From Isoetes taiwanensis (lineage: Eukaryota; Streptophyta; Lycopodiopsida; Isoetales; Isoetaceae), in contig JAJEKV010000189.1 of the NCBI GenBank assembly GCA_021234155.1, positions 293,706 to 357,705 of the forward strand: a stretch of DNA of 64,000 nt, in the 5' to 3' direction. The position numbers and the translations under genes are program-made. Position 1 is the first letter of the stretch; each line of letters starts with the position of its first letter. The notes beneath the pieces were generated by a model, which saw only the letters and a list, made by a program, of their open reading frames with translations, was not told the origin of the DNA and ran no database searches. Shown piece after piece: positions 1-36,551 of the stretch.

Positions 1-587
1 AGAAGCCCAGATAATACAAAGTTGTTCATCTTGATGTTTTCAAGTTGCATACGTTCTGGAAGTTTGAGTGCTTCTCTACCTTGTCCATGATGGGCATATC
101 CTACAATCATGGCTCAAGCCACAACATCACGCACATGTATCACGTCGAATATATGGCAAGCATCTTGTATGTTTCCACATCTATAATACATGTTAATTAA
201 ATTATTCACCAAAGGAATATGTGAACCACATTGGCACTTCAGGATGTTGGAATGCACCAGCTTTCCATTTGCTAAATCTTGAAGCATAACACATGCACTT
301 ACACAGCTGACAAAGGTTACCTTGTCTGGCTGAACGCCTTCCTGTTGCATTTGCAAGAAACATTGAAGTGCCTCAGTACCTCCTCCATCTTGTACATATC
401 CCGTAATTATTATAGTCCAACTAAACACGTTATGTGCCAACATCCTATCAAAGATTTCACATGCAGCCTTTAAGCAACCATACTTGGCATACATGTTCAT
501 AAGATTGTTCCATGAAATGATGCTGGGCTTAACGTGGGCCTTAAGAAGCTTAGCATGAGCTTGTCTTGCTGATGCCAAGCTTTTCAT
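1..587 (-). pseudogene. PLS-type pentatricopeptide repeat protein fragment, broken
   Basis: The minus-strand frame from 587 to 114 reads as consecutive PPR motifs of the P-L-S kind (SWNNLMNMYAKYG, FSWTIIITGYVQ, PDKVTFVSCVSAC, VNNLINMYYRCG). PPR proteins of this class bind organellar RNA and take part in editing or processing. At 114-116 a TGA stands where the family has Trp in the phrase VVAW-AMI, and one neighbouring codon is missing. Past that stop the same frame continues as AMIVGYAHHGQGREAL up to the window edge, so this is one decayed gene rather than a short protein. No DYW or E domain is in view; it would lie to the left. The ATG at 587 may be internal, because typical proteins have more repeats upstream. 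The wording of the repeats resembles fern PPR families, which is the main lineage clue. Confidence 0.8.
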
Positions 588-1588
588 TTGTCTGTTCCTC
601 TACAATGATCTTGTGCTCCGACCCACTCTCTGTATGACTAAAAAATTGGCTAACCCCAATATCCCAAGTACAGAGAAATCCACAAGAATGCACGACCATA
701 TTTCTATTCAAGAAGTGCCTACATAAAGAAATCGCACACAGTTTCTTTGCCCACCCACCTTCGAGCAGAACGCTAAGCAAGCAATTTCCTTTTGAGTGAA
801 AGAACCAGGATATCTTCAGGCATATTACAAAAAACCAAAAACCGGGGAGCCGCGAAATGCACCTCCTTCCAAACCGCCACAAATCGTCTTTTACAAGTAT
901 ACTCAACCAAAAATCCAATCCTTTATTTTCATATTCATAATTCTAACAAGACATTTGGGGCCAGGGGCTTGGTTTAAATCCTTTGCTGTTGGACCCCCTA
1001 TTAACCTCAATGTTTGACCTGGTTTGCTAGTTGATGAAAGGGTACATTTATAACATATGTTTTGGAAGGTTGAAAGGAGGTATTGTATGAAAATGAGTAT
1101 AGGAATAGGGCAAAATCGAATCTTTTCATTTCTTCTATTGTTGGAAGGGTTTTGTTGGGGTCGAGCAGGGCGATGCGATGGTCTGATGCAGGTCACCATG
1201 TTTAGAAGGTAGATATTCTTGTTGTTAGAAAGGCCTTGGCGGATTTGAAAGGTAGGGGAGCGTGTCACGGAGCAGCATTGCGGGGAGCCAAAAATAAGAT
1301 TTTGCTCTTTCGCATCTTCATATCCAGAAGGTGAGGTTTTGTTGTTTATTTCCGAGGGGGTTGCTTGTTATTGAAAAGATGCTTTCTCTGCTTCAAATCC
1401 GACAAAGGAGAAGCTTTCGCAATGCCGTTCTTCCCATTTGGGGTACAAAATTCAAAAATCTGCAAAGGGTAATTCAAAAATCGTAAACCACTAGGGCCAG
1501 TGTTTTGCTGTTTATTATGGTGTGTGTTTTTTTCTAGTATTTTAGGTTTTCAGTGTCCTAGGCGGCGCCACCAACCGTAAACCTTTAT
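588..1588. other. Intergenic, no gene recognised
   Basis: Short overlapping open frames exist on both strands, but none shows a family motif, splice structure or compositional bias I can support. Confidence 0.5.
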
Positions 1589-1673
1589 CATTCAATCAAA
1601 TATTCATTCAGGTATTCAGACATTCAATCAATCAAATATTCATTCAGATATTCAGACGTTCATTCAGATATTC
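1589..1673. repeat. Short tandem repeat built on ATTCATTCAGATATTCAGAC
   Basis: About three imperfect copies of a 20-30 bp unit made of ATTCA and CAATCAAA words run through this stretch. Confidence 0.7.
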
Positions 1674-1936
1674 CCAAAAGTCTTGATATTCCAAATTCTA
1701 ATTACAAGACAACAGAAATTCCTGAATACAGCTTCAACTGAACTCACACTGATCCTTCATTTTGAGATCAAGTTTGTTTTATCAGCAAGAGGGCGGCCAC
1801 TAGAATCTAGAAGCACAAATGCACAATTATTGAATGTTGCACCAACAAAACTCTGACCACCTGCAATATCAAAAAATAAGTATAAACATAATAGAAAACA
1901 CATGAAAGATCGAAAAGATAAAAATATGAAGCTTAC

Positions 1937-2405
1937 CAGAAGTATTTACTTGCACGGTCTTCCTGGAAAATACTGTCGCAGTTTTGGAGTGGTTTCCAGG
2001 AGTTCTTCGAGCATGTCATTACTAAAATCATCACAAGGTTCACCAGAATTTCCAATAAAAGGAACTGCAACTGTGCCAATGTACTTCTCAACACTAGAAA
2101 CATTACAAATATCCATCTTTTCCACGTCTGAACTTAAGTTTCCACCATTGTTCAAACCTTAAAACAAACAAAAAACCAATAAGACAAACAATAAAACAAT
2201 TAATAAACAAATAAAGCAGACACTAACCTGCGCTAGCAATTGGAAGTGGCAAAAGCACCTTTGATGACCTTGAACCTAACAAGGACTTCTCTTTTGCAAT
2301 AGTCAAATCACGCAAAACATCATTGTACAACCTTAATGAACCGTCAGTCATTATAAGGTTTCGCATTAATCTCCATAGCAGCGTTCACCTTGATATCCTT
2401 GCTTC
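1937..2405 (-). other. Possible downstream exons of the tyrosine recombinase gene
   Basis: Two open stretches follow the recombinase exons on the same strand. One reads MTDGSLRLYNDVLRDLT and ends near 2228 at a GTTAGT donor. The next begins after a TTTAAG acceptor near 2162 and reads through VEKYIGTVAVPFIGN to PGRPCK at about 1937. Their phases join each other (GCA-G then GT), which suggests real exons. I could not find a phase-compatible junction to the recombinase exon ending near 2477, so they may belong to a separate or broken transcript. No domain is recognised. Confidence 0.4.
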
Positions 2406-2476
2406 TATCATACCAAAATTAAACAAAACAATATAATCTCTAAACAATAGTACTAAGAAATATAAAAATTAAGAAC

Positions 2477-3799
2477 TTGCTTCTGATATGAGTCGATGCT
2501 CCGGGGTCCCATAACAAGTTTCCCAATCTCGGGAGGCACACCAGCAAGTGACATGCGAGTTATCGTAGACACCCGACCACTTTTGTTTGAAATTTCACAA
2601 TCAACAACGCTGCCCATGTCTCGTACCCAGCTAGATATTTTATTCACACCAACCCTAGTCTTTGCAAACCACATCTACATAAACGAACATATTCAAAATT
2701 ATTATTCAAACAATACTTAAAAACAAATAAAGGATGTTAAAACTTACATTGTATCGATAGTTTGGAATAGCTTGCAAAAAGAATGGCCTTGGACCTGGAG
2801 TCTCCTTCACTGGAATATGCCTAATATACTGTTTATAGGTAAGAATGAAGTCTTCTACAAAACTCCATATTGATGGCCTAAAGTGTGACTCATCAAACCG
2901 GGTCACTGTTGTGCCCCAATTCTTTCTTGTTCTTTCGTCATGAAGTAAAAACTCAGAAGAACCATCAAATTTTAAACTGAAATCAACATCCTTGCATTCA
3001 TACAACTCTGCGCCACCTCTAATAGCAAACCGAGTAACAAGAAAGTAAAAGAGCCTCTTTTTAATCCCCTTTGGGCTATGGATTTGAAAATCTACATCTG
3101 CAAGCAGATCTAGTTTTGTATTGAATGGAACATGAACATCTTTGTCCCTCTTCACACCTACACCCTCCTTCCTTGCTTTATCAGCAGCAGCAACAACAAA
3201 AGCTAATCTAGCTTTATTGAATCTTAGATCTCTCAAGATATTAAAAACTGGCTCCTTAAGATCACCTGTCACATTCACTATACTTTCCTGCTTCTTCCGG
3301 ACGATATGACCTATCGCCTTGAGTAGACAATTTAAACTGCAATAAACAAGTAAAAAATATTAAAATGTCTACAACAACTACCCTAAAGCTAACTACCATA
3401 AAAGAAACTACCCTAAAATAAACTACTAAATAAAAATAAAACCGACATGCCAGCTGGAAATATACTGTCGTCCTTCTTCCTGACTCGCAACATAAACCGC
3501 ATAACCATTTCATTCGGCTGCAACAATGGAATGTCTTCAATTGGAATATCTGGCGAAACAGGTAACTCTTTCTTGAAATGCCTTCTCCAAGCATCAACCC
3601 GGCCTCTAACCCATTTAATCTGCTTGTTAGACCTATCCTTCCCTCCATTTTCAATTTCAACCACAACCTTTTCATCAAGATCGATGTATTCCTTGCATTG
3701 CTTACTGCCCTCACCCTTACTATCAGTACTAAAAAATGGTTGATTAAACCAAGGCTCGTTTTGAATGCCTTGCAACTTCAACATCATGGGGATCAGTTT
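2477..3799 (-). CDS. Crypton-type tyrosine recombinase (DUF3504-like), three joined exons
   Basis: Three minus-strand exons fit by phase: 3799-3447 (acceptor TAG, donor GTCGGT), 3336-2748 (acceptor GCAG, donor GTAAGT) and 2674-2477 (acceptor GTAG, weak donor GTTCTT). The product follows the order of the KIAA1958/ZMYM/Crypton recombinase domain. First comes a helical part with RKKDDSIFPAG leading into LNCLLKAIGHIVR, then an F..LR..L block, then FAIRGGAELYECKDVDF with the first catalytic Arg (codon 3018-3020). After that come HDERTRKNWG, NKSGRVSTITRMSLAGVP, and GPRSIDSY with the candidate nucleophilic Tyr (codon 2486-2488). Two catalytic positions differ from the family: the His of HxxR is Lys (codon 2582-2584) and the later His/Trp is Pro. 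Cryptons insert by tyrosine-recombinase chemistry rather than DDE chemistry. This copy may be a decaying element or a domesticated gene. An upstream frame to 3971 may hold a further 5' exon. Confidence 0.62.
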
Positions 3800-3971
3800 C
3801 TAGAATCAATTGATCGACAATAATGGTTTCATCATCAACAAGGTTGTCACTCGAAAGGAAACCACTTCCAAGTGAGAAGTTTGGTCCACTACTTGTATTG
3901 CAGTCAATAATCGCTACAGTTACCAAATATAAAGCAAAAGCAACTAAAATAAACCACCTTCCATCCTCCAT

Positions 3972-4320
3972 TCCATTGATTTCTTACTCCACAAGTATCC
4001 TGCCACAAAAATAAAATGCAAAATTAGCAAGATTACAAAAGAAAGCATTTAAAGACAAGAAATAGTTACTTTCTGATGCAAGATTCACCATGATTTACCT
4101 TCAGCAAGATAAAACCGCCAAGATTCAACTCCAACAAAAGAAAACCGTCAAGAACCTTCAAAAATAGTGAAATATTGAATAAATAATCGAGATATCAAAT
4201 AAAATAAGCAATGCCATCGTCATTTACCTTGTGCAACAGATTTTAGTCAAAAAGCTTCACAATCTTGAAATCGGGGTAGGGATGCAAAAATGTTAAAAAT
4301 AGGGCAAAGCGCCCGGTTAG
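3972..4320. other. AT-rich spacer upstream of the recombinase gene
   Basis: No coding signal is visible. This is the likely 5' leader or promoter side of the minus-strand recombinase gene, but I cannot point to a core promoter element. Confidence 0.4.
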
Positions 4321-4620
4321 ATTAACACCATAGCAAGTAAGGTATACCAGATTTCTTCAAAAAATCGTTGCTCCAGCAACATGCATCCACAAAGAACGAT
4401 GCCAGAGCCGTGGAGACAGAAAAAACAAAAAACACGGTAAATCTGGACGTGTTCCACTTGGCGCCAGTTACATTAACACCATAGCGGCGGGATATAGTGG
4501 ATTTCTTCAAAAAAATGGCACTCCCAGCCCGACATCGTATAAAGAATGAAGTCGCCGAGGAGAAAGAATAAAAGAGAAAACAGGGTAAATGTGGACGTGT
4601 TCCACCTGGCGCCACGTGTA
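4321..4620. repeat. Two-copy tandem repeat, period about 151 bp
   Basis: ATTAACACCATAGC starts at 4321 and again at 4472. Both copies continue through GATTTCTTCAAAAAA and end near a phrase of the form GGACGTGTTCCAC-TGGCGCCA. The copies are diverged. Open frames over this stretch on both strands are by-products of the duplication. Confidence 0.8.
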
Positions 4621-4744
4621 TGCAAAACACTGCCCTTGTGGTCCAAGTGTGGGAACCCACCGTCGTCGCGAGTTTCCAGCGGGAAACCTGCTCCGGCCGG
4701 TGGGTTCCCAAGCACGTTACACTTCTCATGATGTGATGTGGAGG

Positions 4745-34960: not shown

Positions 34961-35224
34961 GGCATGACTTGTGTTCGACCACAAGGGGGCTAGTGTGGTG
35001 GATTATCTAGTGGGAGAACCCGCTTGGAGGCTCGTAGATGATTTTAGAGTGGAGGCGTAACTCGGACCGATCATGCCGCATTAAAATTCAACTGTCTTTA
35101 AAAGCTTTGAGCAAAGCAAGTATTAAAAGCGCCTACGGGGTAAGGTAAAGTCTGATGGAAAAAGGCAGCAGATTATGCAATAGAATTAGAGAAAGCTCTT
35201 CAAGATATTGACTGGTCAGGAGAT

Positions 35225-36551
35225 TTGGTAGAAAAAAATACATTGCTTATGAATACAATGTATGCAGTGGCCTCTAGTGTTTTTGGAAAGACTAAAGGTG
35301 GTGTGCACCTAAGAAAATGTCAACCGTGGTGGGATGAAGAATGTGTAGAAGCCAGGCGTGCCTTCTATCAGTCATATGCAAAACTGGATGCTAGAAAGAA
35401 ATTTAAGAAGATCACAAAAAGGAAAAAAAGGATATGGGAAAAGGAATGGCAAGAGAAGCTTGCACAAGAACTCCAGCATTTTCCTAGAGATTTTTGGGCT
35501 AAACTGAAACCGCCTGCATCTAATGCAGGAGATTTCAGTAGACATGAGTTACTAGATTATGCCCGTGAACTTTATACAGTACCAGGGGCGGCTCCTATGG
35601 ATTTAGAGCCTGGAGACGTGCCAGATATATTTGATGCTGAGGATGTTAAGCTATCTTTGCAAAAGATGGCGAATGGAAAAGCTCATGATCCTGAAGGTTT
35701 TGCCGTTGAGATGCTTAAATGGGGAGGAGAAATTCTTCATGCTAAAGTGGCCGAGTTGTTTAACTTGGCGCTTATGTGGGGTTTCCCAACCAATGGTGTT
35801 TGAGCAGGATTGTAACTATCCCGAAAGTGGAGATCCACTGTGTTCGAATTATCGCACTATTATGATTAGTAGTGTGATGGCTAAGCTCTTTGGGGCTGTA
35901 CCAGAGAAAAAATTTCATCTTTCCGGCGAGATATGGGGGCGCGAGCCTTATGCCAAGCAGTGTTTTCGCAGAGATCATTCCACCGTGGACCACTTAGTGA
36001 CCTTGGCGATCATGGCAGAGGGAGCTAAGGGTGCAGGTAATGCATTATATTGCTGCTTTGTTGATTTTACGAAAGCATTTGATAGAGTGCCTCGTACACA
36101 ATTGGGGGCACGACTGGAGAAATTGGGAGTGCCACTCTCACTACGAAAGGCAGTTGCTCGGCTGTATGAAAAAGTATTGGTGGAACTCACATTCCCATTA
36201 GATGGATTAGAGAAGGTGGAGAGCAATATAGGGGTGAAGCAGGGGTGTCCTTTATCACCTACACTTTTTGGCCTTTTTATCGATGAGCTTGAGGCATGGA
36301 TGACAGAGGCGGATGTAGGAGTGGAGGTTGGGGATTATCTTCTGAAGCTTCTGCTTTACGCCGATGATGTGGTACTGGTATCTAAGACAGAAATGGGTTT
36401 GCAACGTTTGTTATATGTGCTTGAGCAGTTCTGCGAAAAAACAGGTATGAAAGTGAATAAAAATAAAACCAAAGTTATGGTGGTTGGCTCTCGAGATTCA
36501 GTGGTGATGTATCTGGATGGGGAAATTTTGGAACAAGTAAAACAAAGATAA
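35225..36551 (+). pseudogene. LINE reverse transcriptase, one frameshift
   Basis: The first frame (35225-35803) has the linker CQPWWDEECVEARRAF and RT block 0 (MANGKAHDPEGFAVEMLKWGG). A frameshift near 35800 moves to the frame ending at 36551, with NYRTIMISSVMAKL, CFVDFTKAFDRVP (first catalytic Asp), GVKQGCPLSPTLFGLFIDEL, and LLLYADDVVLVSKT (the YADD pair). The thumb-proximal MKVNKNKTKVMVVG follows. All polymerase motifs are present and only the frameshift and a TAA at 36549 spoil it, so this is the best-preserved LINE polymerase in the window. Confidence 0.88.

Follow-up and report, generated by a model that had tools for sequence, protein, structure and literature searches.

Positions 1482-4714 of the stretch of Isoetes taiwanensis DNA analysed here (64,000 nucleotides, referred to throughout as the window) are very probably a decayed Crypton-type DNA transposon, in which the only recognised enzyme is a tyrosine recombinase (YR). 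The copy in the window is one member of a large, diverse and dispersed family, and its host is a lycophyte, not a fern as a sequence-only reading of the same DNA had supposed. Taken by itself this copy is an unremarkable fossil, and it is the family that is of interest.

Kojima and Jurka (2011, PMC3212892) record 94 Cryptons, all from animals, fungi and stramenopiles, and no plant appears in their table; the available text of that paper describes Cryptons as having neither terminal inverted repeats (TIRs) nor long direct repeats, with terminal direct repeats of 4-6 bp, and MarCry as a composite with TIRs and a Mariner part. Extracts from three further papers state that YR transposons have no TIRs and no target-site duplications (PMC3627910), that none have been described in Arabidopsis (PMC7385966), and that there are none yet in plants (PMC11397423); the accessible sections of a survey list Crypton among the superfamilies found in all groups, land plants included, and the relevant section shows no elements (PMC4438587). 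The Crypton mechanism is called undetermined in the available text of a 2022 review (PMC9406493). Within the partial texts retrieved on lycophytes, Selaginella, bryophytes and land plants, we found no characterised plant Crypton, and our searches found no literature joining Crypton and Isoetes.

A dispersed family of elements

The genome searched comprises 1,658,258,908 bases in 1,110 contigs. The gene of the window copy, used as a DNA query, has at least 51 matches there (40 of 85 candidates scored), its exon 3 as a protein query at least 150 (150 of 941 scored), and the 3'-terminal 110 bases of a sister subfamily at least 40 (40 of 128 scored), all three counts being lower bounds. Two family copies are nearly alike, with 99.2% identity across 1,568 bases. 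Contamination is unlikely, since exon-3 matches were found on contigs as long as 53 Mb, one copy (L017) is inserted within a LINE, and the window copy lies close to a fragment of a PPR-repeat gene. That fragment occupies window positions 114-599, beside the element (PPR_2, E 6.6e-24), and LINE-like reverse-transcriptase frames, judged by eye, are present at window positions 35156-36551.

The seven copies with both ends tabulated measure 3,083-4,783 bp (the longest has an internal insertion), and all seven contain the YR gene; no second transposition enzyme, whether reverse transcriptase or DDE, was noticed by eye in the reading frames of copies with known ends. The window copy and its terminal features are as follows.

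1482..4714, minus strand: whole element, 3,233 bp, in gene sense TGCT...GGTTTACG; a decayed copy, with ends taken from comparing copies and from paralogous empty sites
4648..4714, minus strand: 5'-terminal hairpin; z -5.08, with 0 of 200 shuffles as good
4622..4647, minus strand: inverted repeat, 5' copy, directly inside the hairpin
1482..1508, minus strand: inverted repeat, 3'-terminal copy, ending GGTTTACG in gene sense

Gene structure

The sequence-only reading had joined three minus-strand exons in phase, and these are indeed present (3799-3447, 3336-2748, and 2674 to about 2481), with GT-AG introns, about 380 open amino acids and the motifs FAIRGG, NKSGR, GPRS and SIDSY. That these three make up the gene did not hold: by comparison with sister copies, exon 1 reaches further upstream, to a start near 3971, and exons 4-6 follow downstream, giving the window element a gene of about six exons.

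3447..3971, minus strand: exon 1; the reading frame changes near 3780
2748..3336, minus strand: exon 2, holding FAIRGG with the catalytic Arg
2481..2674, minus strand: exon 3, with NKSGR (KxxR) and with GPR where relatives have GHR
2228..2413 (about), minus strand: exon 4, with the Tyr of KYDRS; acceptor lost, frameshift, TGA
1937..2157 (about), minus strand: exon 5, positioned by comparison with relatives; the frame probably changes near its end
1757..1860 (about), minus strand: exon 6, GGQSFVGATFNNCAFVLL, terminating in a stop; placed by comparison

Splice sites of the copies were read by eye. Divergent relatives have three intron positions in common: one precedes LNxLxK, one follows the NYK/NPRYN stretch, and one splits the K codon immediately ahead of YDRS. 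The subfamily of L022 seems to carry an additional intron within exon 2. The predicted N-terminus is hydrophobic in several subfamilies (window 3971-3890; L022, L025, L026 and L027), a stretch that may be signal-like or may be a short intron read through. At the other end of the protein the motif GGxSFVGATFNNC is conserved between the window copy (1757-1860) and exon 6 of L026 and L027; the exon 6 piece of the window gave no match in Pfam.

Identity of the recombinase

The proposed resemblance to the Crypton domain DUF3504 was borne out in part, as a weak match of the window protein (E 0.076) whose 13.5 bits fall short of the cut-off of 29.7; the core of the protein matches at E 0.26, its exons taken singly match no recombinase in Pfam, and alone it stays under every Pfam cut-off. 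With E values of 1 or lower, four of eight family members match DUF3504; no score shown passes the cut-off, the best being 23.7 bits against 29.7 (E 5.4e-5). These sub-threshold matches point weakly to Crypton group A. A DUF3504 search of the whole genome did not return the window's family, and put only two loci (C31 and C606) above the cut-off; both have internal stops, neither is in the window's family, and none of 14 control genomes has a match.

The assignment is carried by relatives in the same genome. One of these (L090) exceeds the Phage_integrase cut-off (E 1.1e-7, 32.3 against 27.1 bits); its alignment with the family spans 188 columns, with 41% identity (probability 99.9), and R, KxxR, GH and Tyr line up in it. 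Another (L030), with two exons joined, scores 28.9 bits against the same cut-off and aligns over 104 columns at 37% identity (probability 97.3). Since both relatives pass the cut-off and align to the family, the family can be taken to encode a YR, and they bear out the claim that this plant genome has a Crypton-type YR. Of 451 candidates found with the L030 lineage as query, 150 were scored; there were at least 74 matches, and those at E 2.9e-4 and 7.1e-4 belong to the window's family. Sequence searches of the PDB gave 1 and 3 weak matches with no recombinase among them; tblastn of L090 against phage records gave seven weak matches (E 3e-3 to 3e-2), of which five carry the annotation integrase or tyrosine integrase; and in viral contigs none of 173 pattern matches was confirmed.

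The relatives fall outside the window's family. A second YR lineage comprises L029 (C31), L030 (C606), L091 (C1065) and L092 (C1100), and has KxxR followed by H (KTLRHYAVTR in L030). In a third relative, L090 (C1019, 677-2567), the catalytic part lies in one open frame of 417 amino acids (KSCRHTAIT), and a similar frame of 417 amino acids is found at C1041:12105180.

Catalytic residues

The window copy was thought to have altered catalytic histidines, and both substitutions (Lys in HxxR, and Pro at the following His/Trp position) are present; only the Pro is private to it. Lys occupies the KxxR position in 25 of the 25 copies that cover the site (among 29 sequences, namely 28 genome copies and the window), and 40 further copies, hand-picked down the ranking of 150 exon-3 matches, have K in 39 and R in one, with R at the fourth position in 37. 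The His of GH is found in 21 of 21 other covering copies of the first set and in all 40 of the second, the window copy alone having Pro. Judged from these alignments, Lys in KxxR is normal for the family, and the window copy has suffered no lesion there.

For the catalytic Tyr, SIDSY had been put forward; it is probably instead the Tyr of KYDRS at the start of exon 4, which a motif scan finds in 32 of 40 copies and which is retained in all lineages compared (it is kept in L030 and L090, and the SY Tyr is missing from L030). The exon-4 Tyr sits nine residues past H, a spacing that is also that of XerD. The family thus has R-K-R-Y and a further H, not the strict Crypton tetrad R-H-R-Y. According to the accessible text of PMC8371274, KxxR is an active variant in SSV1-type archaeal integrases, which share the consensus R...KxxR...Y and of which the SSV1 enzyme is active; those enzymes, unlike ours, are integrases of archaeal viruses, and the likeness is one of motif.

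Ends of the element

Among seven copies, the 5' end is TGCT in five, TGAT in one and TAGG in one, and the 3' end is GGTTTACG in six and AGGTTACG in one. The 3'-terminal 25-27 bases recur, inverted and imperfectly, near the 5' end, where the repeat is subterminal, behind the hairpin. The sequence of the inverted repeat varies by subfamily, and both ends of one subfamily match: ends from the window's subfamily agree at 17-21 positions and those from the L017 subfamily at 17-24, as against 9-15 when the two groups are compared; L022 agrees with itself at 21 positions and with the L017 group at 14-17.

When eleven 5' ends were folded, most gave a strong hairpin, with L003 and L011 weak and L014 less so; in six strong ends tested against shuffles, z ranged from -5.1 to -9.5, with 0 of 200 as good in each. 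Across ten of the eleven ends (L011 omitted), 106 of 120 stem cells pair, and an end's own arms pair on average at 10.6 of 12 positions, against 7.5 across 58 crossings between subfamilies; the arms were selected by eye, a procedure that favours pairing. Paired changes occur at stem positions 8 to 12, as in a covarying hairpin. In the Crypton literature found, to the extent of the accessible text, neither a 5' hairpin nor such inverted repeats are described.

Hairpins in the other lineages are strong in L091 and weak in L090 and L092. Those of L091 are very strong and lie upstream of the second-lineage gene (421-525 and 106-200 in gene sense); the larger is a long palindrome with outer arms CGTTACCTAC and GTAGGTAACG, like the ends of the L022 element.

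Insertion sites

Three insertions have paralogous empty sites that span the join, and none of them (L017, L009 and the window copy) shows a target duplication. For L017, the joined flanks are crossed by 19 of 28 search matches, and the six that were read have TTTATGTGG, an exact join of the flanks. For L009, 7 of 26 matches cross, five of them at 91-95%, and the four read have the flanks exactly joined. For the window copy, 4 of 14 matches cross, with identities of 78-86%; on reading, all four differ by about one base from the joined flanks at the join, with further indels beside it in L046 and L047, and the window's insertion site is less exact than those of L017 and L009. No spanning site was found for L022 among 40 matches, which gave half-sites only, the right one being CGTTTATG^AAAA.

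The empty sites read for L017 and L009 have a G before the crossover, and so do the L022 half-site and three of the four window sites; in L018, L020 and L014 such a G is indistinguishable from the element's own base. As to short terminal direct repeats like those of Cryptons, the terminal TTTACG of the element resembles targets such as TTTATG, but the left side differs among copies. An unrelated short insertion lies at the place of L017 in the LINE (L042 on C974, L043 on C943); with a run of T at its start and without the family's 5' end, it was rejected as a family member. L041 was not counted as an independent event, because its insertion is that of L017, present in a duplicated copy (91.7% overall with the flanks).

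Decay of the window copy and constraint on the family

The frame of exon 1 changes near 3780, that of exon 4 changes and then meets TGA, and that of exon 5 probably changes near its end, on weaker evidence. The splicing that had been called intact fails before the Tyr exon: the intron preceding exon 4 has a GC donor where relatives have GT, and AG is absent at the family's acceptor place. Two AGs lie further upstream, and by eye one leads to an immediate stop and the other to a different frame. As read from these lesions, the window copy is dead and no longer able to make the enzyme. Its sister L001, which has the 3' flank in common with it, is also damaged.

In the family, the median dN/dS of exon 3 is 0.186 (quartiles 0.091 and 0.325), from 76 pairs with dS 0.1-1 drawn from 40 open copies, the window's included, the pairs not being independent; by this measure the family's exon 3 is under purifying selection. 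The changes private to the window copy (1 synonymous and 4 non-synonymous; 4 and 7 in L001) are too few for a test.

Alternative explanations

Domestication with selective loss of the catalytic His had been suggested from the clean exon phases, with early decay as the alternative. A Crypton-derived host gene that has kept its fold and dropped its catalytic residues, like ZMYM2-4, QRICH1 and KCTD1 in animals, would explain why three exons are open and in phase and why one catalytic position is now Pro, but we consider it highly improbable: the frames of exons 1 and 4 are broken and the Tyr exon is without an acceptor, the Lys is the family state, the family is multicopy with paralogous empty sites, and the private changes just given offer no test of constraint. 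The window copy lacks the intact reading frame of a host gene, and the decay alternative fits, the private Pro occurring alongside broken frames and the loss of a splice acceptor. The animal DUF3504 genes (ZMYM2-4, QRICH1, KCTD1 and WOC) are weakly similar to the family, at best at the sub-threshold E of 5.4e-5, and according to the accessible text of PMC3212892 these host genes have lost the catalytic Tyr and the second Arg; the family, unlike them, is mobile and has R, KxxR, H and Tyr still in place.

A YR is also found in DIRS elements (PMC3212892, in the part available), which would allow the window element to derive from a DIRS-like YR retrotransposon as a non-autonomous relic; this is very unlikely, as the seven copies with both ends hold the YR gene within 3,083-4,783 bp, and the frames listed include no reverse transcriptase inside the elements, the window's among them. 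The imperfect inverted repeats of 25-27 bp could suggest a cut-and-paste (DDE) transposon with terminal inverted repeats and a YR-like passenger, as in the fungal MarCry composite. We give this the least credence of all: the three insertions for which an empty site spans the join have no target duplication, the 5' repeat is subterminal, behind the hairpin, no DDE gene was noticed among the frames listed, and the YR is under purifying selection. Against the Crypton explanation, which we prefer, we count the window protein's place under all Pfam cut-offs, a whole-genome DUF3504 search without the family, DUF3504 reached by four of eight members with none shown above the cut-off, the PDB searches without a recombinase, the inverted repeats, unreported for Cryptons with a YR alone, and L022 with half-sites only.

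A possible mechanism

Dispersal, constraint, insertion without duplication and matching ends are what the copies display. In open relatives, the recombinase would bind the inverted repeats, the element would be excised as a circle with its ends joined as TTTACG|TGCT, and the circle would recombine, by way of a Tyr-DNA intermediate, into TTTATG^ and similar targets, the Tyr carrying out strand exchange near TTTAYG. Circles have been proposed as Crypton intermediates in the literature as well. The hairpin could place the 5' repeat next to the crossover. In integrons, attC is a folded hairpin adjoining the place of YR strand exchange, and the hairpin at the crossover described here, known from sequence and folding alone, is similar. 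As a tentative and rather doubtful proposal, the family may form a Crypton group of its own in land plants, with a folded site as the place of recombination; the 5' hairpin, extruded or single-stranded, would put the inverted-repeat halves beside the crossover, and the enzyme would recognise a structured end as integron integrases do with attC. To our knowledge, no such mode has been known for a eukaryotic transposon.

Significance

In the accessible text of PMC3212892, Cryptons F, S, A and I resemble the family in having a YR as sole transposition enzyme, no target duplication, short length and an R...R...Y layout. The family differs from them in living in a land plant and in replacing the H of HxxR by K, and, on the same text, in its many copies, where most Crypton hosts have very few, and in its inverted repeats and 5' hairpin. 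A land-plant Crypton lineage so abundant, and with such ends, appears to be new in the literature as far as it was accessible, with the counterpoint that PMC4438587 lists Crypton for land plants. The genome of this vascular plant holds at least 150 exon-3 matches as well as related lineages, with some near-identical copies and exact empty sites, and the family supplies clear ends, targets and catalytic residues on which the Crypton mechanism can be tested. It further suggests that such elements go unclassified in plant repeat libraries.
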